From contig NZ_OY762276.1 in NCBI RefSeq assembly GCF_963665445.1, positions 3,051,501 through 3,115,500 of the forward strand: a DNA stretch of 64,000 nt, written 5' to 3'. The translations under genes were made by a program, and so were the position numbers. Position 1 is the stretch's first letter. Each line of letters begins with the position of its first letter. Source of the stretch: an uncultured Desulfobulbus sp. (GTDB taxonomy: Bacteria > Desulfobacterota > Desulfobulbia > Desulfobulbales > Desulfobulbaceae). The notes beneath the pieces were generated by a model, which saw nothing but the letters and a program-made list of their open reading frames with translations, did not search any database and was not told where the DNA came from. This document shows positions 1 through 39,587 of the stretch, one piece after another.

Positions 1-3000
1 GGACAGCAGGCCCAGGTCGCCAGACAGGCGGGCGCACAGCTTGCCTCCATGGAGGGCGTTGCCCTGGGCAACATCCTCTCCCAGAAGTTCAAGGGCCTCT
101 TTGGCGAGCGGCTCTATGAGCAGGTGATCAGCCAGGTTTCCGACGATCTGCTCGACGAGACAGTGGAACACCTCACCCCCAAACAGCTCAACCGCATGGT
201 CGCCACCCTCACCAGCGAGGTCCCCCTGTTTATCGGCAAGGACGGCGATCCGGACTTCAAACCCGCCGACGGATCCATTCTCAAACGGCTGGCCCAGACC
301 AAAAAAGGGCCAATGATCGAAAAGGCCATTGCCCACAACGTCGATGCCCGGCATCTACTCGCCAATCCCGAGACCACCATCGGCCAACTGCCGCCGCACC
401 TGTTGGAACGTCTCCACCAGCCGGAATGGTCGGCACCGGTGCTGGCCTCCGCTGCCCAGCAGGTGGTGACAAGCCAGGACGAACCCGGCACCAAGATCGA
501 TTTCACCGCCTTCAACCGCATGCTCGGCCAGTATGAGCAGCTCCTTGACCAGGGGCAGCAGGCCCAGGTCGCCAGACAGGCGGGCGCACAGCTTGCCTCC
601 ATGGAGGGCGTTGCCCTGGGCAACATCCTCTCCCAGAAGTTCAAGGGCCTCTTTGGCGAGCGGCTCTATGAGCAGATGATCAGCCAGGTTTCCGACGATC
701 TGCTCGACGAGACCGTGGAACACCTCACCCCCAAACAGCTCAACCGCATGGTCGCCACCCTCACCAGCGAGGTCCCCCTGTTTATCGGCAAGGACGGCGA
801 TCCGGACTTCAAACCCGCCGACGGATCCATTCTCAAACGGCTGGCCCAGACCAAAAAGGGGCCAATGATCGAAAAGGCCATTGCCCACAACGTCGATGCC
901 CGGCATCTGCTCGCCAATCCCGAGACCACCATCGGCCAACTGCCGCCGCACCTGTTGGAACGTCTCCACCAGCCGGAATGGTCGGCACCGGTGCTGGCCT
1001 CCGCTGCCCAGCAGGTGGTGGCAAGCCAGGACGAACCCGGCACCAAGATCGATTTCACCGCCTTCAACCGAATGCTCGGCCAGTATGAGCAGCTCCTTGA
1101 CCAGGGACAGCAGGCCCAGGTCGCCAGACAGGCGGGCGCACAGCTTGCCTCCATGGAGGGCGTTGCCCTAGGCAACATCCTCTCCCAGAAGTTCAAGGGC
1201 CTCTTTGGCGAGCGGCTCTATGAGCAGGTGATCAGCCAGGTTTCCGACGATCTGCTCGACGAGACCGTGGAACATCTCACCCCCAAACAGCTCAACCGCA
1301 TGGTCGCCACCCTCACCAGCGAGGTCCCCCTGTTTATCGGCAAGGACGGCGATCCGGACTTCAAACCCGCCGACGGATCCATTCTCAAACGACTGGCCCA
1401 GACCAAAAAGGGGCCAATGATCGAAAAGGCCATTGCCCACAACGTCGATGCACGGCATCTGCTCGCCAATCCCGAGACCACCATCGGCCAACTGCCGCCG
1501 CACCTGTTGGAACGTCTCCACCAGCCGGAATGGTCGGCACCGGTGCTGGCCTCCGCTGCCCAGCAGGTGGTGACAAGCCAGGACGAACCCGGCACCAAGA
1601 TCGATTTCACCGCCTTCAACCGCATGCTCGGCCAGTATGAGCAGCTCCTTGACCAGGGACAGCAGGCCCAGGTCGCCAGACAGGCGGGCGCACAGCTTGC
1701 CTCCATGGAGGGCGTTGCCCTGGGCAACATCCTCTCCCAGAAGTTCAAAGGCCTCTTTGGCGAGCGGCTCTATGAGCAGGTGATCAGCCAGGTTTCCGAC
1801 GATCTGCTCGACGAGACCGTGGAACATCTCACCCCCAAACAGCTCAACCGCATGGTCGCCACCCTCACCAGCGAGGTCCCCCTGTTTATCGGCAAGGACG
1901 GCGATCCGGACTTCAAACCCGCCGACGGATCCATTCTCAAACGACTGGCCCAGACCAAAAAGGGGCCAATGATCGAAAAGGCCATTGCCCACAACGTCGA
2001 TGCACGGCATCTGCTCGCCAATCCCGAGACCACCATCGGCCAACTGCCGCCGCACCTGTTGGAACGTCTCCACCAGCCGGAATGGTCGGCACCGGTGCTG
2101 GCCTCCGCTGCCCAGCAGGTGGTGGCAAGCCAGGACGAACCCGGCACCAAGATCGATTTCACCGCCTTCAACCGCATGCTCGGCCAGTATGAGCAGCTCC
2201 TTGACCAGGGGCAGCAGGCCCAGGTCGCCAGACAGGCGGGCGCACAGCTTGCCTCCATGGAGGGCGTTGCCCTGGGCAACATCCTCTCCCAGAAGTTCAA
2301 GGGCCTCTTTGGCGAGCGGCTCTATGAGCAGGTGATCAACCAGGTTTCCGATGCTCTGCTCGATGAGACCGTGGAACACCTCACCCCCAAACAGCTCAAC
2401 CGCATGGTCGCCACCTTCACCAGCGACATTCCCCTGCACATAGGCAAAGACCATGACCCGGACTTCAAGCCCGCCGACGACACCGTTCTCAAACGTTTGG
2501 CCCGGACAAGCAAGGGGCCGGAAATATCACAGGCCATCCCCCGACATATCGATGCCCATCACCTCCTGAAGGCATCGTCGCACTCCCACCAGTTTCCCGA
2601 TACTCTTGCAGCACGCCTTCATCAGCCGGACTGGTCGGCACCGATTCTGGTCGCCGCCACCCGTCAAATTCTCGATCAGGATATGGCGGAACCCGGTGCG
2701 CCCATGCATCTGGCAAACTTTGAACAATTACTGGAGCGCTACAGCAACCTCCTCAGCAGGGAAGAGCAGCTGCAGGTGGCCAGTCAGGCGGGAGCCGAGT
2801 TCGCCAGTTTTGAGGACCGAGAGCTGGGCCTTGTTCTGGTCAAAAAATATAAGAATCTTTTTGGTGAACAGCTCTACCAACAGGTCATTGCCCAACTTTC
2901 TCCGGAAAGGGTCGAACGGCTAGCGGCACAGTTCCGGGATCTGGCCGAGGGGCGAACGCCACGGCCTTCGGAGATGCACGACGTTGATGTCGAAGATGCC

Positions 3001-5352
3001 TACCGCAGCCTGATGGAAACGGTCCGTAGCGAAAAAATGAGGGCGATTATCGAGTTGCATCAGGAACAGAAAAAACAGAAGGAGGAGGCGCGCAAGGCCA
3101 CCATTGAAAGCAGCCTCGACGGACTGCTCAAAGGCGAGTTCAAGGAGCTTGAAAACCAGGCCTTTATCCAGGCCGTGCCCGAAGAGGTGCGTAATCTCCT
3201 GCTCAACAGTGAAGTCGCCACTGCGGACAACCTGTTGATGCAGTTGGCCATCGGCCTCTCCCATCAACAGCCCCTGATTCGGCACAACGCCTTTCGTGCC
3301 TTGGCTGCCACCGCCGAGCATCTGGCCCGTATCGGCGACTGGGAGCGGTTTACCAAACTCTTGCCTGCCCTGCAGCAGGGGATGCAGCAACAGGGCGCGG
3401 ATGCTGCCGGGTGCAGCCAGGCCCTTTCCGCCATTGGTGCGCTGACTGGCCATTATCTTGGTCAAGATGAGTATATCTCGGCTGTGGAGACGATCCATTT
3501 TCTCCAACGCTGCACCGATACAAACGCCCCGGCGTACCTGCAGGAGCCCGCTGGCGAGGCCCTCTCCTCACTCTGCACCGAGCAAGTACTCAAACGGCTG
3601 CTTGATCGTTTTCTCCATGGAGAGGAACAGCAGGATACGGTTGGCAAAATACTGGTCGACCTGGGACCGGACTCTGCCAAATTCCAACTGCAAACACTCT
3701 TTGACAGCGAGAGCCGCTTTGAACGAAAACGGCTGCTGGAGCTGATCAAGCAAACCGGCAACCCGGCGGTGGCCCTGCTGCTCGAGCAACTCCACAGGGA
3801 TGCGCCCTGGTATGTCCTGCGTAACGTTATCCGACTCCTGGGAGACATTGGCAACCCGGCGCTCTTCAGCAGGGTTCGCCCCTTCATCGGCCACAGTGAT
3901 CCCCGCGTCCAGCAGGAGGTTATCGGGACCGCTTTAAAAATCGGAGGGGACCATCTCAAGGATTTCCTCCTCCATGCCCTGCAGAACGTCGATGATTCGC
4001 TCAAGATTCGCGTGATCAATCATGTGGCCACAAACCACGATGAGCGGTTCGTCCGTCCACTGACCGACCTGCTGGAGAGTACCAAACCGTTTCTGGGAAA
4101 AAATAAAAACAATCTCCAGGTGAGTATCTGCAGAACCCTCGGTGCCATCGGCTCACGCCGGGCCACCGCCTCGCTGAACCGGGTGGTGCAGAGTAAGAAC
4201 ATGCTGGGATTGACCGGTTATGCCGATGAGGTCCGGGAGGCGGCGGAGCACGCCCTCAAGCAGATTCATCTGGCCAACCTCAACCAAGACGATACATTGC
4301 CGGAGCAGCCGGGCGAGTCCCCCGCAACAAAGGGTGCAGGCCCGGTAACTGCCGCTGCGGAATCGGTTCAGGCTGCAGAAGAGGCCATCTTTGCCCTGGT
4401 TCGGGAGGGCAAACAGGGTGAGGCCAGGCAACAACTGCTCGATCTGATCGGCAGCACCGCCAGGGCCGGTGATTTCGCCACCGCGGAGCGGTTGCGGGAG
4501 CGCATCTATGAGATCGACGCCATGCCGCTTTCGGATGTCATTCGCAGCGAGGAAATCATCCAGCAGGAAAAACAGGGCGGCATTCGCGAAGAGGACCTGG
4601 AGATTTGGGCGGAACTGACCGATCGGCTCGGCACCAAAGAGTTCCGCACCATTTATGAGGTCTTCACCGAGCGGCGCTTCAAGCCGGAGGAGACCATTGT
4701 CAGTCAGGGGGATAAAAACGATGCCCTCTTTTTCATCAACCAGGGCAGCGTCAAGGTCTCGCACCTGGTCGGCGAAAGGGAGCTTTTCATCACTAGCCTG
4801 AGCCGCGGGCAGCTGGCCGGGGAAAATTTCTTCACCCCCTCCCTGTGGACCGTGACCCTCACTTCCTTGACTCCATCGCGACTCTACCTGCTTCCCCAGA
4901 AGGCCCTGGCCCAATGGCAGGACAAATTTCCCGGCCTGCGGGCCAAGCTTTTTGAGTATTACCAGACCTATAACAATATCGGCCTGATGCTCAAGAAAAA
5001 AGGCCTTGATCGCCGCAAGGATCAGCGCTTTACCCTCGCCCGCAAGATTCAGGTCCAGCCGATCAGCAACCTCGATGCCCCCATCGGGCGTGGCTTTCGC
5101 TCGGAAACCGCGGATATCTCCCAGGGCGGCCTGGCCTTTCTCGTCCGCATCTCCCGCCAGGAAAATGCCCGCCTGCTCCTGGGCCGGAGGATGCAGGTTG
5201 TGCTGCCGGTGGGAGGAAAAATCGGTCACCTCAACTTCAAGGGGCTGGTCATCGGGGTGCAGCCCTACCGCCAGCTGCTGGGAAACTTTTCGGTTCATTT
5301 CAAATTCGACCACCCGCTTGACAGCCAGGACCTACAGGCCATCCTCGGCTAA
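1..5352 (+). CDS. Giant tandem-repeat protein with HEAT-like, cNMP-binding-like and PilZ domains (5' end outside window)
   Basis: The reading frame is already open at base 1, where the codons match the end of a repeat unit, so the true start lies upstream. The ATG at 49 is only a repeat-internal methionine. Five 184-residue units fill 49-2808, and a partial sixth (ELGLVLVKKYKNLFGEQLY) follows. About 3400-4280 encodes HEAT-like helical repeats; 4620-4960 a cyclic-nucleotide-binding fold (SQGDKNDALFFINQGSVKV). In that fold the phosphate-binding Arg expected after the GEN motif is absent, so cAMP binding is doubtful. 5008-5330 is PilZ with both c-di-GMP motifs, RRKDQR (RxxxR) and DISQGG (D/NxSxxG). 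No signal peptide or membrane segment is visible in the part shown. Inference: a large cytosolic scaffold that senses c-di-GMP. The role of the repeat is unknown. Confidence 0.85.
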   Translation, partial: GQQAQVARQAGAQLASMEGVALGNILSQKFKGLFGERLYEQVISQVSDDLLDETVEHLTPKQLNRMVATLTSEVPLFIGKDGDPDFKPADGSILKRLAQTKKGPMIEKAIAHNVDARHLLANPETTIGQLPPHLLERLHQPEWSAPVLASAAQQVVTSQDEPGTKIDFTAFNRMLGQYEQLLDQGQQAQVARQAGAQLASMEGVALGNILSQKFKGLFGERLYEQMISQVSDDLLDETVEHLTPKQLNRMVATLTSEVPLFIGKDGDPDFKPADGSILKRLAQTKKGPMIEKAIAHNVDARHLLANPETTIGQLPPHLLERLHQPEWSAPVLASAAQQVVASQDEPGTKIDFTAFNRMLGQYEQLLDQGQQAQVARQAGAQLASMEGVALGNILSQKFKGLFGERLYEQVISQVSDDLLDETVEHLTPKQLNRMVATLTSEVPLFIGKDGDPDFKPADGSILKRLAQTKKGPMIEKAIAHNVDARHLLANPETTIGQLPPHLLERLHQPEWSAPVLASAAQQVVTSQDEPGTKIDFTAFNRMLGQYEQLLDQGQQAQVARQAGAQLASMEGVALGNILSQKFKGLFGERLYEQVISQVSDDLLDETVEHLTPKQLNRMVATLTSEVPLFIGKDGDPDFKPADGSILKRLAQTKKGPMIEKAIAHNVDARHLLANPETTIGQLPPHLLERLHQPEWSAPVLASAAQQVVASQDEPGTKIDFTAFNRMLGQYEQLLDQGQQAQVARQAGAQLASMEGVALGNILSQKFKGLFGERLYEQVINQVSDALLDETVEHLTPKQLNRMVATFTSDIPLHIGKDHDPDFKPADDTVLKRLARTSKGPEISQAIPRHIDAHHLLKASSHSHQFPDTLAARLHQPDWSAPILVAATRQILDQDMAEPGAPMHLANFEQLLERYSNLLSREEQLQVASQAGAEFASFEDRELGLVLVKKYKNLFGEQLYQQVIAQLSPERVERLAAQFRDLAEGRTPRPSEMHDVDVEDAYRSLMETVRSEKMRAIIELHQEQKKQKEEARKATIESSLDGLLKGEFKELENQAFIQAVPEEVRNLLLNSEVATADNLLMQLAIGLSHQQPLIRHNAFRALAATAEHLARIGDWERFTKLLPALQQGMQQQGADAAGCSQALSAIGALTGHYLGQDEYISAVETIHFLQRCTDTNAPAYLQEPAGEALSSLCTEQVLKRLLDRFLHGEEQQDTVGKILVDLGPDSAKFQLQTLFDSESRFERKRLLELIKQTGNPAVALLLEQLHRDAPWYVLRNVIRLLGDIGNPALFSRVRPFIGHSDPRVQQEVIGTALKIGGDHLKDFLLHALQNVDDSLKIRVINHVATNHDERFVRPLTDLLESTKPFLGKNKNNLQVSICRTLGAIGSRRATASLNRVVQSKNMLGLTGYADEVREAAEHALKQIHLANLNQDDTLPEQPGESPATKGAGPVTAAAESVQAAEEAIFALVREGKQGEARQQLLDLIGSTARAGDFATAERLRERIYEIDAMPLSDVIRSEEIIQQEKQGGIREEDLEIWAELTDRLGTKEFRTIYEVFTERRFKPEETIVSQGDKNDALFFINQGSVKVSHLVGERELFITSLSRGQLAGENFFTPSLWTVTLTSLTPSRLYLLPQKALAQWQDKFPGLRAKLFEYYQTYNNIGLMLKKKGLDRRKDQRFTLARKIQVQPISNLDAPIGRGFRSETADISQGGLAFLVRISRQENARLLLGRRMQVVLPVGGKIGHLNFKGLVIGVQPYRQLLGNFSVHFKFDHPLDSQDLQAILG
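49..2808 (+). repeat. Tandem array of 552-bp coding repeats (five units in window, array continues left)
   Basis: Units begin at 49, 601, 1153, 1705 and 2257 with MEGVALGNILSQKFKGLFGE, exactly 552 bp apart. Units 1-4 are nearly identical in DNA, including third codon positions. Unit 5 matches for about its first 50 codons and then diverges strongly, as expected of an older boundary unit. The first 48 bases of the window match a unit end, so at least one more unit lies to the left. The total copy number cannot be read from this window. Confidence 0.97.
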
Positions 5353-5414: not shown

Positions 5415-7193
5415 ATGCACACACCTGATGCGATCAGCCGCTTTTACCTCCAGCACCTGCCTGAGGCCAAGCTCCACAATCACACCCTGCAGGCGCCCTG
5501 CCCCTTCTGCGGCACGCCCCCACGCGAGACAGGCGGCCGCATTCAGGTGCTCTTGAATACCGAGAGTTTTTTCCACGGCTACTTCCGCTGCACCGAGCGT
5601 TGCGTAACCGGCGGTTTTCCCCTCCACTTTGCCCGCCGGGCCAAGGTGCCGCTTTCCAGGGTACCGGGGTTTGATCCCGATCGGGAATACTACGGCCACG
5701 AGGCGGACTACCCGGTAAAAAATCTCAACAACGAACTCATCCAATTCACGGAAAAGCTCACCCCCGAGCAATGCGCCCCCTTTTTCGCCGCCGGGATCGG
5801 CGCCGAGGTGCTCGAAGAGATGCGCATCGGCTTCAATGGCAGATACCTGCTCTATCCCTACATCCAGCCCGACGGCAACTGCTACTCTGCCCGCTGCATC
5901 AACCCGGACCGTCCCGAGGATGCCTTCTGGTACGGGGACGAGCGTTTTTTTGCAGAGCAGTTCCGCCTATTCAACGGCCCGGAAATCGACTGCTGCGAGA
6001 ACGGCGCGCTCTTCCTGGTTGAGGAGGAAAAAAATCTCCTCCCCATCAAACAGCTCGGCTTTCCTGGTCTTGCCGTACCGGCAGCAGCCGACCTGGAGGC
6101 CATTGATCCTGCCCGCCTCAACTGGATCCACACCATCTTTCTCTGGGTGAACAACAACACCGAATCCGAGGCCAAGGCCCGCGCCTTTGCCACCCGCATC
6201 GGTTTCAAGGTCCGCATGATCCGCTGGCCCGAGGAGGCGGAGAAAAACGCGACCATCTTCTCCCTGGCGGTAAAAAATCCCGCATCCCTGGGAACAACCG
6301 TTGCCGCCCTGATTAAAAACGCCCGCGCCTTTTCCCCCTTCCCCACCCCCCAGGCTGAATACCAGGCCTTCAAGGAACGGTTGGTTCAGGAGGCGGGTAC
6401 GGCCTACACCCGGCTGGTCAGCGGTTTTCCCCGTCTTGATCAGGCCTTGGGCGGGATTCACGGCATCAACATCATCGGCGGCACCCCCAAGGCGGGTAAA
6501 TCGGCCTTCTGCATCCAGGTTGCCACGGAAATGGCGCAACAAAGCCTGCCGGTTCTCTACTATGACTTTGAAAACGGCCGCCAGAAAATTTACCTTCGCA
6601 CCCTCTGCCGACTCAGCCGCATCAGCATCGCCCAGATACAGCGGGGACCGCTGACCATCGAGCAACAGCAGCGCCTGCACCAGGCGCATCAACGCCTGAA
6701 AAAAATGCTCTTCTGGCTGCGGGTGATCAACGATCGCAAACTCTCACCGGAAACCATGCGCAGGCATATCGATTTTCTCCGCCATGAAACCAATTCCGCC
6801 TACACGGTGGTGGTGATCGACAGCCTGCACAAACTGCCGTTCAAGGATATCAGCGACAAACGCAGCGGCATCGATGGCTGGCTGCGTCAACTGGAGGCGA
6901 TTCGCGATGAGATGTCGGTCAGTTTTGTGGTGATCTCCGAGCTCGAGCGCAGCGGGGACGGTCAGTTCGACCGCCAGCCGCATCTGGGCTCGTTCAAGGG
7001 ATCCGGCGACATCGGCTACTCGGCCGACAACGCCATGGTCCTCATGCCGCAGTGGGATCCCTTTGACGACAGTGCAATCAGCAAGCGGTGCAACGAACTG
7101 TGGCTGGTGGCCAGCCGGGAGCAGAGTCCCGGCCGGGTTGCCGGCTATCGGCTGGATTACCCCTATTGGGGGTTTATCGAAGAAGAAGGCTAA
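5415..7193 (+). CDS. Twinkle/DnaB-like primase-helicase homologue with zinc finger, degenerate TOPRIM and RecA-type ATPase
   Basis: 592 residues. The N-terminus has a zinc-ribbon-like pair CPFC ... CTERC (residues about 29-60), as in T7 gp4/Twinkle-type primases. The middle resembles TOPRIM (LFLVEEEKNLLPIKQLGFPG), but the acidic DxD is replaced by asparagines (LWVNNNTESEA), so primase activity is doubtful. The C-terminal half is a RecA/DnaB-like ATPase: Walker A GGTPKAGKSAF, Walker B TVVVIDSLHKLPF, then a sensor region with SELERS and FKGSGDIGYSAD. It starts 62 bp after the repeat protein and ends 3 bp before the convergent trmFO stop. It looks like a mobile-element or phage-derived replication protein, but no other phage genes are nearby. 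Family placement is fairly secure; function is inferred. Confidence 0.72.
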   Translation: MHTPDAISRFYLQHLPEAKLHNHTLQAPCPFCGTPPRETGGRIQVLLNTESFFHGYFRCTERCVTGGFPLHFARRAKVPLSRVPGFDPDREYYGHEADYPVKNLNNELIQFTEKLTPEQCAPFFAAGIGAEVLEEMRIGFNGRYLLYPYIQPDGNCYSARCINPDRPEDAFWYGDERFFAEQFRLFNGPEIDCCENGALFLVEEEKNLLPIKQLGFPGLAVPAAADLEAIDPARLNWIHTIFLWVNNNTESEAKARAFATRIGFKVRMIRWPEEAEKNATIFSLAVKNPASLGTTVAALIKNARAFSPFPTPQAEYQAFKERLVQEAGTAYTRLVSGFPRLDQALGGIHGINIIGGTPKAGKSAFCIQVATEMAQQSLPVLYYDFENGRQKIYLRTLCRLSRISIAQIQRGPLTIEQQQRLHQAHQRLKKMLFWLRVINDRKLSPETMRRHIDFLRHETNSAYTVVVIDSLHKLPFKDISDKRSGIDGWLRQLEAIRDEMSVSFVVISELERSGDGQFDRQPHLGSFKGSGDIGYSADNAMVLMPQWDPFDDSAISKRCNELWLVASREQSPGRVAGYRLDYPYWGFIEEEG

Positions 7194-17319: not shown

Positions 17320-19392
17320 CTATTTCTTGCTCGATGCATCGAGCAATTTTTTCACTTCGTCAGCTTCTTCAAAATTTGACGAAAGGCTCAAGGCACGCTT
17401 GAACTCTTCCCTCCCAGCCTCTTCTTTCCCCATGGCAAGAAAAACACGGCCAAGATGATAATGGAACGTGGGACTATTGGAAGAAATCCGCAACGCTTTT
17501 TCAAAGTAGGGAACGGAGTCGGCATACTGTTTTTTCTGGAAAAGTATCCAACCTATCGTGTCAAGAACACTTGCATTCCCAGGTTGCAACGTATTGGCCT
17601 TCTGCGCCAGGAGCATGGCCGTATCCAACTCCAGACCTTTTTTTGCATAGAGCCAGGCCAACTGATTGTAGCCCACATAGTACTCAGGAGCTATTGCGAC
17701 CACTTTTTTGTACTGGGCAACAGCGGCTCCAACATTTCCTGTGTGCTCGAAGTAGAGGCCGAGCCTTATCAACACCCCCGCATCATCGTGAACTCGAGCA
17801 GCCTGCTGATAATATTCAGCTGCTGCATCGAAATTACCCTCGCTAAAATTAATTTCGCCAAGAGCATACAATGCCGAAAAGAAACTCGGCATGATTTTGA
17901 TCGAATTCTGCATGTACTGTTTTGCCTGTGATCGATCTCCCTTTCGGAGAAAGACCTGAGCTGATAGATACCTTGCCAGCAATGATTGCTTGTTGACGTC
18001 TGCAGCTTTCTTCAATTGCTGCAGGCTCAAGGAATAGAGTTGTTCCGAAAGATAGAGGACCGCCAAATCAACATATTTTGCCTCCTGCGGAGACACGACG
18101 CTGGCAAATTGCCCCTCATCAATGCCAAAAAGAGCAAAACCTGCGGCTTTCTGACCAGAATCGGCAAATGCCTGATACGCCGCATCGAAATGATGCTGCG
18201 ACAAGGCCTGGCAGCCAGAGGAGAAACGCAATAAATGTTGCTGCGCCACGGTTAACGAGTCAACGGAACTCGGAGAATCATCGCCAGCCATTCCGAGGTA
18301 GAGGCGCACTACCGAACGGGTATACTGTGCACCAAAATGGCGAGGGTTCTTTTTCGATAATTTTTCTACAACCTCAAGTGCAGGCTCATACTGGCCATCC
18401 GCCATTAAACAATATGCCTGCAGATAGGCGCCTTCGTCCGTGAGAGGAGCCACAATCGCCACATATCTGAGCGCCTCTGCCAGACTTCCCTTGTGGAGGT
18501 AGGCATTTCCCAAAAGCAGATAGGCGTTTACCTTCTCAAAAGGCTCCAACTTTTTTCCTAACTCTATGGCCTGGTCGTACTGCCCTGTCTGCAAAAACAG
18601 TTTTCCCGCCATTTCCAAGGCCATGCTGTTCGCAGGCTGCAACTCCATGCATCGTTTCAAGCTCTCTAAGGCGAGGACTTTCTGCCCGAGACTTTCATAG
18701 ACATTTGCCAGCCCCCAGAATGCTGCAAAGGAGGCTTTATTTTTTACGATTGCCTCTTTGAACAAAATTACAGCCTCGTTCATCTGCCCCATTGCGAAGG
18801 CAATGGTGCCAGCATTGATATAGGCTACAGTGAAATTCTTGTTCAGCTCAATGCATTTGCGATAACACTCCATGGCCTGGGCATATTCCTTCTGATCAAA
18901 GTAGATCTTTCCCAGGATGTTCCACGGATAAGGGTGAATGGGTGCTTTCGCTATGGCCTGCCTGCATCGTTTTTTCGCTTCACTATGTTTTTTTTCATTG
19001 TGAAGCATGACTGCATCGACGGAATCAAGATAGAACGAATCAGCCTTGTGTTGCCTGGCCTGCTGCAGATGGTCACGCGCCTGAACGCGTTGACCGTGAA
19101 GCGCGAGATACAGGCTTTTCAGCGCATGACCATTGCCATTTTCCGGATGCGATTTGAGCAATGCTGTTGCAAGCACCCCTGCCTGTTCAACATTGCCATC
19201 AACAAGGGCCTGTTGCATCTGCTCTTCAAGGGTCACCGGAGATTGGGCGAAAGAGGTGGGGAGAGTTCCAGCATCATCAACGTCTACCATCTGCAAGGTC
19301 ACGGCGGAACCTTCTGCACCAAGCGTCCAAGTAATGAGAACGATAATTAACGATAGGAACATGCGAAATTTGTGGATCCTTGGCTGTCTCAT
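17320..19392 (-). CDS. Exported TPR-repeat protein, probably part of the PEP-CTERM locus
   Basis: 690 residues from the ATG at 19392, chosen because GGAGGAGAG precedes it and it begins a signal peptide (MRQPRIHKFRMFLSLIIVLI). An upstream extension to 19479 lacks support. Nearly the whole mature protein is tetratricopeptide repeats, for example PWNILGKIYFDQKEYAQAME and AYINAGTIAFAMGQMNEAV; the last units near the C-terminus are also canonical. It sits between two PEP-CTERM genes and resembles the large TPR proteins (PrsT-like) associated with PEP-CTERM/exosortase systems, but there is no lipobox Cys. Likely a periplasmic scaffold. The assignment to the sorting system rests on context. Confidence 0.82.
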   Translation of the reverse strand: MRQPRIHKFRMFLSLIIVLITWTLGAEGSAVTLQMVDVDDAGTLPTSFAQSPVTLEEQMQQALVDGNVEQAGVLATALLKSHPENGNGHALKSLYLALHGQRVQARDHLQQARQHKADSFYLDSVDAVMLHNEKKHSEAKKRCRQAIAKAPIHPYPWNILGKIYFDQKEYAQAMECYRKCIELNKNFTVAYINAGTIAFAMGQMNEAVILFKEAIVKNKASFAAFWGLANVYESLGQKVLALESLKRCMELQPANSMALEMAGKLFLQTGQYDQAIELGKKLEPFEKVNAYLLLGNAYLHKGSLAEALRYVAIVAPLTDEGAYLQAYCLMADGQYEPALEVVEKLSKKNPRHFGAQYTRSVVRLYLGMAGDDSPSSVDSLTVAQQHLLRFSSGCQALSQHHFDAAYQAFADSGQKAAGFALFGIDEGQFASVVSPQEAKYVDLAVLYLSEQLYSLSLQQLKKAADVNKQSLLARYLSAQVFLRKGDRSQAKQYMQNSIKIMPSFFSALYALGEINFSEGNFDAAAEYYQQAARVHDDAGVLIRLGLYFEHTGNVGAAVAQYKKVVAIAPEYYVGYNQLAWLYAKKGLELDTAMLLAQKANTLQPGNASVLDTIGWILFQKKQYADSVPYFEKALRISSNSPTFHYHLGRVFLAMGKEEAGREEFKRALSLSSNFEEADEVKKLLDASSKK

Positions 19393-19465
19393 TTTGCGCT
19401 CTCCTCCAACTTGTCCGCGTCGACGGTTCTGTATTGATGCACTTCCTTGAAGTGTTTGCCTGCTC

Positions 19466-19496
19466 AAAAAAAAAGGCAAGCATTTTCATGCTTGCC
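19466..19496 (-). terminator. Intrinsic terminator after the vWA PEP-CTERM gene
   Basis: Minus strand GGCAAGCAT-GAAA-ATGCTTGCC, a perfect 9-bp stem with a GNRA loop, followed by nine T. It separates the vWA gene from the TPR gene. Confidence 0.92.
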
Positions 19497-36938: not shown

Positions 36939-39587
36939 TCAGGGAGGCGGCAGGAGATTGCCGATCTCGGCAGGACCAAGGGGGGCGGAGAAAAAGCTCC
37001 CCTGGACCAGATCGCAGCCGACCTCCGCGAGGAAGCGGTGCTGGTCCGGCCGCTCGACCCCGTCGGCCACCACCCTCACTTCAAAGGCGTGACAGAAGGG
37101 AACCAGGGCGGCGACCAACTGGCTACTCTCCTCATCGTGGGGAATTTCATCGATGATCTCCCTGTCGAGTACGACCGCTCGCACCGAAACAGACTGCATC
37201 TTCAGAAAAAGCGAACGACCGCTGCCGAATGCTCCGATGGCCAGGCCAAGCCCCCATGCATTGAGCCGCTGCAGGCATTCCAGCAGCTGACTGGTAGCCT
37301 CGGTGACCACCCGTTCCCGCAACTCGAGCGTCAGCAGGCCCGGCCGGAGATCGTACTGTTGCCACCAGCGCTCGATCATGGAGAGAAAACCGGCATCCAG
37401 CATCATTCGACTGCTGCAGGGGAGACTGACCGGCAGAACCTGTTTTCCCTGGTCGTGCCACCTGTGTATATCCTCGGCAAGCCGACCAAAGAGCCAATCG
37501 GCCAAGGGCCCGAGCATATCGCACTCCTGGCTGGCGGCGACAAAGGCCTCGGGCAGCAGCAACCCCATGTCCGGGTGCTGCCAACAGGGCAAGGCCTGCA
37601 GACCGAGCATCTGCTCGTCGCCCAAGGTATAGCGCGGCTGATACTCGATGAAGAGTTCTCCGGTGGTGAAGGCCCGGCGAAACTGCTGGGCATTGAGCTG
37701 GCGCCGATTACCGGTATTGGGCAGATTTTGGCTGAAAAACTGGTAGTTGCTGCGCCCAACCTCTTTGGCTGCATACAGGGCCATATCGGCACGCTTAATC
37801 ACCTCATCGATGTTTTCCGCATCAATGGGGTAGATGGCAATACCGATGCTGGTCGACACCTGAATCCGGTGTTCCTTGGCCTGGACCGGCTGCGCCAAGG
37901 CGGCCATGATCTTCTCGGCGACCACACCTGCATCCTTGTGCTCGTTGATATTCTCGAGCACAAAGACAAACTCGTCCCCGCCGAGACGGGCCACGGTATC
38001 CGACTGGCGGCACTGCCGCTGCAGGCGAATGGCGACCTCCTTCAACAGCACATCGCCGATATCGTGGCCAAGGGTATCGTTGATGGTTTTAAACCGGTCC
38101 AAATCAAGAAAGAGCACCGCAACGCCGACCTTGTTTCGATCCGCCTTGCTCACCGCCTGGTTGAGGCGATCGCGAAACAGGAGACGATTGGGCAGGCCGG
38201 TGAGCGTATCGTGGTGGGCCAAGCGGTAGAGATGCGACTGGCTCTCCCGGAGCTCTTTTTCGATGCGCAACCGGTCGGTGATGTCGCGTGCCACCTCGAT
38301 CATCCCGTAGAGGTTGCCCTGGCGATCGAGCAGCGGTGAGACCTCGAGCTCAAAGGTATTCTTGACCCCATTGCCGTGATAGGGGTTGTGCACCATCTTG
38401 ACCTGTTTTTTCTCCTCCATGACCCGGACAACAGGGCAGGGATAGCGCTGGTCCTGACAGGGCTTTTGGCTGCAGGAAAACAGACGATAACATTTTTCCC
38501 CCTGGGCAATCTCGGCACCGTGCTCCCGACACACCAGGCGCATCGCAGCCTGGTTGATCAAGAGGACATTGAATTCGAGATCGACCACCATAACCGGATC
38601 ACCGGCACTGTCGATCACGGTCTGGAGGAAATTGCGTTCGTGATTGACCGCCTCATGCAGCTGCTGCTGGACAAGGGCGACCGCCTGATCCTGTTTTTTC
38701 TGCAGGGTAATGTTCTGATGGGTGCCGGTCATGCGCACCGGCATGTTGTTGCCGTCCCGCTCGACCACCCGGCCACGATCAAGAAACCAGGTCCACTCGC
38801 CGTTTTTCTCCTTGACCCGATACTCGATACGATACTCGTCGGTCTTGCCGGAAAGATGCTCATTGAGCACCGCCAGCACCTGATCCCGGTCGTCGGAATG
38901 AATAAAGCGCCGCGGCACTGCAGGATCGGATGCTTCGGCCCGGTAATCGAGCAGTTCCCACTGATCCGGACTGGTGTACATCTCACCGGTGCTGATGTTC
39001 CAGTCCCACAAGCCCGCCTGGGAGGCCTGAAGGGCCAACTCATAGCGCTCTTCGATCAGTTCAAGCTCATGTTGCCGCTGTTTGACCGCCTCTTCGGCAA
39101 AGAGCTGGCGCAGGGCAACCCCCAGGGACTCGGCAAGTTCGGTGAGAATGGTGGTTTCAACCGTTGTCGGCCGGAAATCGGCCGGAAATTTAAGGGTAAG
39201 GAAACCCGACAAACTCGAGGTGCAGTGAAGGACGATGGTCACCCCCAGGGACCGCTCCGCCTCGCCCTCGCCGCAAAGACCGCAGCTGCACTGCTCGCAC
39301 AGAACCACCTCACCCCTGTCGGGTTCCATGGCCCGGCGCCCGCAATCGGGCAACTGGCCCTTCTGCAGGCCGTCCACTAAGGGCTGGAGCACGTCCTGCA
39401 GACCGGTCTCGGCGGTGATAATGCCCCCCGAATCGCGATCAAGGAGAACAATCAGCGCCGCCCGCGCAGTCCCTGCACCGGTCAATCGATCACAGACGCC
39501 CTGGAGCAGATTGGCGAGATCTCGTTCCTGAAGGAGAAAACGGCTGACGTCATAGGCAGCTTCCAGCAGAGTCGGGGTTCGTTGCAT
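36939..39587 (-). CDS. GAF-PAS-PAS-GGDEF-EAL signalling protein with degenerate EAL
   Basis: 882 residues, no membrane segment. GAF about 10-170, with a Cys-rich insert (VVLCEQCSCGLCGEG); PAS about 190-310 (GLWDWNISTGEMYTSPDQWE); second PAS about 325-450 with clustered Cys (CYRLFSCSQKPCQDQRYPCP). GGDEF about 465-620 has an intact GGDEF motif and an RQSD inhibitory I-site five residues before it, so it probably makes c-di-GMP with feedback. In EAL about 635-880 the catalytic set is eroded: LQAL for EAL, GAFGSG for DDFGTG, LRER for the ELTE-type Glu motif, ADGVE for AEGVE. Hydrolysis is unlikely; binding is possible. Downstream of the response-regulator gene on the same strand. Confidence 0.9.
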   Translation of the reverse strand: MQRTPTLLEAAYDVSRFLLQERDLANLLQGVCDRLTGAGTARAALIVLLDRDSGGIITAETGLQDVLQPLVDGLQKGQLPDCGRRAMEPDRGEVVLCEQCSCGLCGEGEAERSLGVTIVLHCTSSLSGFLTLKFPADFRPTTVETTILTELAESLGVALRQLFAEEAVKQRQHELELIEERYELALQASQAGLWDWNISTGEMYTSPDQWELLDYRAEASDPAVPRRFIHSDDRDQVLAVLNEHLSGKTDEYRIEYRVKEKNGEWTWFLDRGRVVERDGNNMPVRMTGTHQNITLQKKQDQAVALVQQQLHEAVNHERNFLQTVIDSAGDPVMVVDLEFNVLLINQAAMRLVCREHGAEIAQGEKCYRLFSCSQKPCQDQRYPCPVVRVMEEKKQVKMVHNPYHGNGVKNTFELEVSPLLDRQGNLYGMIEVARDITDRLRIEKELRESQSHLYRLAHHDTLTGLPNRLLFRDRLNQAVSKADRNKVGVAVLFLDLDRFKTINDTLGHDIGDVLLKEVAIRLQRQCRQSDTVARLGGDEFVFVLENINEHKDAGVVAEKIMAALAQPVQAKEHRIQVSTSIGIAIYPIDAENIDEVIKRADMALYAAKEVGRSNYQFFSQNLPNTGNRRQLNAQQFRRAFTTGELFIEYQPRYTLGDEQMLGLQALPCWQHPDMGLLLPEAFVAASQECDMLGPLADWLFGRLAEDIHRWHDQGKQVLPVSLPCSSRMMLDAGFLSMIERWWQQYDLRPGLLTLELRERVVTEATSQLLECLQRLNAWGLGLAIGAFGSGRSLFLKMQSVSVRAVVLDREIIDEIPHDEESSQLVAALVPFCHAFEVRVVADGVERPDQHRFLAEVGCDLVQGSFFSAPLGPAEIGNLLPPP

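Follow-up and report, generated by a model that had tools for sequence, protein, structure and literature searches.

A homogenised tandem array of 552-nt units in a large Desulfobulbus gene, with signs of unequal recombination between the units

The window, that is, the 64,000-nt stretch of Desulfobulbus DNA analysed here, opens inside a large gene that carries an array of repeat units in one open frame (Table 1). The genome is assembled as one 5.08-Mb contig, in which the repeat gene is complete; it is cut by the window start, window base 1 being base 7501 of L008. Completed from the upstream stretch and counted from its ATG, the gene encodes 2203 aa, with a GTG located 22 codons before the ATG as another possible start. 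The protein consists of an N-terminal domain, a partial unit (unit positions ~48-184), the units U1 to U4, U5, a second partial unit, HEAT repeats, a cyclic nucleotide-binding (cNMP)-like domain and a PilZ domain, in this order.

Table 1. Positions of the repeat units, protein domains and adjacent gene in the window
Feature	Position	Strand	Basis or remark
Open frame of the repeat gene, 3' part	1..5352	+	Gene start 1260 nt upstream of the window; full gene L008:6241-12852
U1 (184 aa)	1..552	+	Unit alignment/profile
U2	553..1104	+	Unit alignment/profile
U3	1105..1656	+	Unit alignment/profile
U4	1657..2208	+	Unit alignment/profile
U5, chimera as judged from unit trees	2209..2760	+	Resembles U1-U4 up to nt ~130; the tree of the final 93 aa joins it to the last units of G001 and D. 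rhabdoformis
C-terminal partial unit (unit positions 1-53)	2761..2922 (end approximate)	+	Unit profile
HEAT repeats (best stretch of PF13646)	3772..3999	+	Pfam match
Cyclic nucleotide-binding-like domain (PF00027)	4669..4914	+	Pfam match
PilZ domain (PF07238)	5008..5343	+	Pfam match
592-aa DnaB_C-type ATPase, neighbouring gene	5415..7193	+	Pfam domain; homologue shares the contig in 15 of the 17 relatives examined

The two domains at the C-terminus pass the curated Pfam cut-offs, with 49.5 vs 27.5 bits for the cNMP-binding domain and 29.9 vs 22.5 bits for PilZ. The key residues of PilZ domains are the RxxxR and [DN]xSxxG motifs, and the RxxxR and DxSxxG residues are invariant in all 12 aligned sequences (window and 11 relatives). 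The consensus of cNMP-binding domains includes a phosphate-cassette arginine, which is not evident in the alignment of the window's protein with 11 relatives, so that ligand binding by this domain is doubtful. The N-terminal domain and the unit have no convincing known family in Pfam, NCBIfam or PDB. MgtE_N, BTAD, NitrOD2 and TIGR00305 exceed their curated cut-offs when the long frame is scored as a whole, yet no single stretch passes alone; these scores were taken as sums over the repeats, and the assignments were rejected. A 19-residue hydropathy scan of the repeat protein, a crude measure, peaks at 1.17 and detects no hydrophobic N-terminus or transmembrane-like segment, which suggests that the protein is cytosolic.

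U1-U4 are the near-identical 552-bp coding repeats described in the first-pass annotation: they lie head-to-tail in exact 552-nt register and are 98.6-99.5% identical in DNA and 98.9-100% in amino acid sequence, each pair differing at 3-8 nt. Because 552 nt equal 184 codons, the reading frame is kept when units are gained or lost. The array has diverged edges on both sides. Just upstream of the window lies the diverged partial unit, the last ~156 nt of which match the array except at two sites that are polymorphic within it, and downstream, the first ~130 nt of U5 agree with U1-U4 except for one site that is already polymorphic among them, after which U5 diverges, its overall amino acid identity to U1-U4 being 66.7-67.2%. 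The homogenised tract thus starts at about nt 397 in the upstream partial unit and ends at about nt 130 in U5, covering roughly 2.5 kb. All 7 unit matches in this genome fall within the repeat gene, so that no donor copy was detected elsewhere in the genome. Tandem Repeats Finder, with a longest period of 500 nt that makes it uninformative for a 552-nt unit, reported nothing for the array.

The AlphaFold2 model of two units, built on an alignment of 15 rows including 4 from the window, consists of helices only, ten per unit (pLDDT 81.6, pTM 0.78). The model of the N-terminal 604 aa of the D. rhabdoformis protein is poorer (pLDDT 72.6, pTM 0.52), with a mixed alpha/beta fold up to residue ~150 and low-confidence stretches, followed by helices that lead into the unit. 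Foldseek returned no match at E <= 0.001 for these models; the TM-scores do not exceed 0.33 among the 50 matches shown per search, which are largely alpha-solenoids, all weak. The unit of the window matches 0 Pfam families at E <= 1; over 35 unit members, HEAT_EZ appears in 1 (E 0.32), and the commonest family, MgtE_N, in 7 (best E 0.048). The unit resembles HEAT/ARM alpha-solenoid proteins in its all-helical model and in that its best Foldseek matches, all weak, include armadillo, Pumilio and importin folds; unlike them, it is 184 aa long and has no significant sequence or fold match in Pfam or Foldseek, so that the unit itself is not a member of this class by either profile or fold.

The relatives of the repeat protein are Desulfobulbaceae, mostly Desulfobulbus. 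A scan of named genomes with an alignment of the C-terminal 863 aa (window and 11 relatives) yielded 37 loci, of which the closer ones belong to Desulfobulbus and Desulfogranum and include D. rhabdoformis DSM 8777 and D. alkaliphilus DSM 24258; the other loci are labelled Desulfobulbaceae, Desulfofustis, Desulfoprunum or Desulfocapsaceae. A viral origin was discarded: in a search covering the C-terminal part, this part has no confirmed relative in viral contigs. With the window's own genome counted, the unit alone finds matches in 20 of 75 genomes, and the unit profile in 27 of 73 genomes of the family; D. rhabdoformis brings the number of species with a unit match to 28. Outside these 28, the Desulfobulbus MAG Emb289P4bin76 encodes a homologue (L062, 9317-12175, 953 aa) in which nothing between the N-terminal domain and the HEAT part matches the unit.

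Partial end units persist across species, and the number of full units between them ranges from 0 to 5 across the 22 readable species: five in the window's genome, G009 and D. rhabdoformis; three in G001, G010 and Desulfogranum japonicum; two in G017, G023, G043 and G087; one in G002, G004, G006, G007, G016 and G033; and none in G022, G029, G039, G075, G076 and G080. The number expected for D. alkaliphilus DSM 24258 is one. G006 and G016, in which the upstream partial unit is damaged or missing, were counted as having one unit, as was G004, in which the profile does not detect the downstream partial unit; G084 was taken as Desulfogranum japonicum (the same 1828-aa frame) and G075 as L070, in both cases on identical frame lengths only. 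G011, G015, G019, G035, G077 and G086 were left out of this count owing to contig ends, split frames or partial genes. In G011 (L044 3836-9150), two frames each contain a portion of the array, and the unit at their junction is incomplete, which could represent either a natural frameshift or an assembly collapse. The first-pass annotation had called for comparison of copy number among relatives and had named a fixed number in all of them as evidence against its reading; at the species level, this is contradicted by the observed range.

The annotation had also warned that assemblies may collapse the array, and this fits the at least four draft genomes in which contigs end inside a unit. The same contig ends speak for a true number of units other than the assembled one, and the four near-identical units may be a minimum. 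We nevertheless consider an assembly artefact quite improbable: U1-U4 can be told apart by the 3-8 differences within each pair, the genome of the window is in one contig, and assemblies of other species also contain 2-5 units.

In at least three genomes, inner units resemble those of their own array and not those of the other genomes. Within a gene, the DNA identity of inner units is 99.5-100% for u1-u4 of G009, 94.4-96.0% for u1-u3 of D. rhabdoformis, 89.3% in G023 and 82.9% for u1-u2 of G010, against a best between-genome unit match of at most 82% (rounded) for any two of 17 genomes. Other arrays are not uniform, the units of G001, G017, G043 and Desulfogranum japonicum sharing only 46-68% DNA identity, and in G023, protein-changing codon differences outnumber silent ones, 27 vs 17. 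In trees built from 40 units for the two ends of the unit (the first 60 aa and the last 93 aa), U1-U4 form their own clade, with support of 0.82 and 0.99, respectively; u1-u4 of G009 form no separately supported clade apart from G015 and G009_u5. The edges of the G009 tract are sharp, with identity rising from 0.33 to 0.98 in adjacent 60-nt steps. Together with the window's array, the family thus presents a graded series of array ages, with inner-unit identities of ~99.5-100, 98.6-99.5, 94-96, 89 and 83% in five genomes, which is useful for studying how domain repeats arise, are evened out and diverge.

Such identity could, in principle, be held by selection on the protein and its codons, without any homogenisation. 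Indeed, of the 12 variable sites across U1-U4, 10 are silent and only 2 change the protein, compared with 76% expected for random changes (P = 2e-5), so that these units look constrained. Constraint as the cause of the identity of the units is, however, rejected by the comparison of silent codons, made for chosen pairs rather than every pair. Among codons for the same amino acid, 1.1-3.9% differ within U1-U4 (3 of 6 pairs), 1.7% within G009 (1 pair; its four units have 3 silent differences in all) and 10.4-13.5% within D. rhabdoformis (2 pairs), against 43-50% between U1 and the units of four other genomes. A silent difference of 1-4% within the gene as opposed to 43-50% between genomes is not explained by constraint, and we regard selection without homogenisation as barely credible. 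The recent amplification or homogenisation proposed from the near-absence of silent differences among U1-U4 is supported by these values and by the clade that the four units form in both trees.

The variants singled out in the first-pass annotation were read correctly: ACA/GCA at site 469 (T/A) separates U1 and U3 from U2 and U4, and sites 288 (CGG/CGA) and 348 (GCC/GCA) split U1-U2 from U3-U4, as does site 171 (CAC/CAT), which it did not mention. The mosaic that it saw in this pattern exists, but the conflict is weaker than was stated: the three incompatible site pairs all involve site 469, so that the mosaic among U1-U4, taken alone, is a weak signal of exchange. From the upstream partial unit to U4, site 469 reads G,A,G,A,G, all neighbours being different. 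Two further sites are out of neighbour order as well, the upstream partial unit agreeing with U2 at site 519 and U2 with U5 at site 3. Repeated mutation at site 469, a single transition, could remove the conflict among U1-U4. The array could then have arisen through a single, recent episode of tandem duplication that was not followed by any exchange, its variants being new mutations, as would be compatible with the few differences (12 sites) and with the sharp tract edges in G009. By a hand argument made without simulation, though, no last duplication of a single unit fits site 469 unless a mutation is repeated, and a last duplication of two units conflicts at sites 171, 288 and 348.

Stronger evidence of recombination than the mosaic among U1-U4 comes from the chimeric edge of the array and from the relatives. 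In the tree of the first 60 aa, U5, the last unit of the window's genome, groups with U1-U4 (0.88); over the last 93 aa, it joins the last units of G001 and D. rhabdoformis instead (0.99). This conflict in placement marks U5, on the evidence of the unit trees, as a chimera. By the same grouping, the last unit is orthologous in the three genomes, and U5 looks like the ancestral last unit, the start of which has been overwritten. In the last-93-aa tree, u1-u3 of D. rhabdoformis are also placed with u1 of G001 (0.94), u4 with u2 (1.0) and u5 with u3 (0.82), a pairing from which it would follow that the D. rhabdoformis array has grown by two copies of one unit since the split or else that the G001 array has lost them.

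An apparent contraction is found in G022, which has 0 full units. Before the FGxxLY motif, its end unit shares 31 of 39 residues with the G002 inner unit and 16 of 39 with the G002 end unit; after the motif, it shares 6 of 22 and 17 of 22, respectively. In the 11 other genomes among the 12 for which end-unit coordinates were available, the end unit matches the first full unit of its own gene at 10-24 of 38-39 residues before the motif. The end unit of G022 thus appears to be a unit/end hybrid of the kind left by a crossover deletion. This reading depends on the split at the motif, given that BLAST with the whole segment ranks the G002 end unit first (90.9 bits vs 80.1 for the inner unit). The chimeric U5 and the apparent contraction product in G022 agree with the unequal crossing-over suggested initially, and both count against a burst of duplication with no later exchange, which we find improbable.

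Unequal recombination inside the repeat gene is, by comparison of the units within and between genomes, well supported. We consider it highly probable that the gene harbours an in-frame array which has been resized and kept uniform by unequal recombination, and which has a putative cytosolic scaffold role. Under this scenario, unequal homologous recombination between the gene's own 552-nt units would change the length of the array and keep it uniform, via crossing-over between sister chromosomes, possibly along with gene conversion, and presumably by a RecA-type mechanism. Recombination may still be taking place and might be frequent or polymorphic within the species. With less certainty, the units may make up an arm of alpha-helices, solenoid-like in shape, within a cytosolic protein, in which the C-terminal PilZ domain, a probable c-di-GMP domain, and the cNMP-like domain might control what the arm scaffolds, and the number of units would set the length of the arm or the number of binding sites. 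From its domain make-up, we infer that the repeat protein could be a cytosolic, possibly c-di-GMP-responsive scaffold of adjustable length.

The process itself is already known. In the accounts of PMC8201768 and PMC9704523, long, near-identical, length-variable arrays in bacteria are best described in surface proteins, with adhesion or host immunity as the presumed driver. The Periscope proteins (SasG, Rib, Sgo_0707, CdrA) are described there as cell-surface stalks with high-identity tandem domains in variable number, for which intragenic homologous recombination is the proposed cause. The search rule given in PMC8201768 is tandem repeats of more than 50 residues with at least 80% identity, and U1-U4, at 184 aa and 98.9-100% amino acid identity, fall within it; that study reports varying repeat number in 84 groups and confirms 56 of them as Periscope proteins, and the remaining groups may already include non-surface cases. 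As portrayed in these papers, Periscope proteins share with the present array the long tandem domains, very high DNA identity within one gene and varying number. The differences are that the variation in number is here seen between species (0-5) and in Periscope proteins between closely related strains, and that the repeat protein lacks surface features by the crude hydropathy scan and contains HEAT, cNMP-like and PilZ domains. Periscope arrays are rod-like, with domains that can fold individually; for the present array, two units were modelled as helices (pTM 0.78). Spider silk genes, as presented in PMC3933166, are similar in having tandem repeats, non-repetitive flanks and homogenisation within the gene, and differ in that the present unit is bacterial and helical and belongs to a protein with a predicted role in signalling. 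Of the four subjects PilZ domain, HEAT repeat, cyclic nucleotide-binding domain and Desulfobulbus, a literature search found no paper that combines three or more. The occurrence of such an array in an apparently cytosolic, signalling-related protein suggests that intracellular reach or valency may be adjusted in a like manner. A bolder proposal, that the protein is an intracellular counterpart of Periscope proteins, in which recombination alters the copy number of the helical arm within populations and this number is under selection as a means of tuning the reach or valency of a scaffold responsive to c-di-GMP, appears to us rather unlikely.

In L051, L064 and L074, ~2.5 kb separate the gene for the neighbouring DnaB_C-type ATPase from the repeat gene (or homologue), and a functional link between the ATPase and the repeat protein is possible. 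By eye, the N-terminal CPFC...C..C stretch of the ATPase looks like a zinc finger or primase. The upstream neighbour, which, from reading its sequence, we take to be a Maf-like gene, likewise shares the contig in 15 of the 17 relatives examined. Elsewhere in the window, positions 17320-19479 (-) encode a 719-aa protein consisting largely of TPR repeats, and positions 36939-39587 (-) encode an 882-aa PAS-GGDEF-EAL protein, likely an enzyme of c-di-GMP turnover, which the window contains alongside the PilZ protein.
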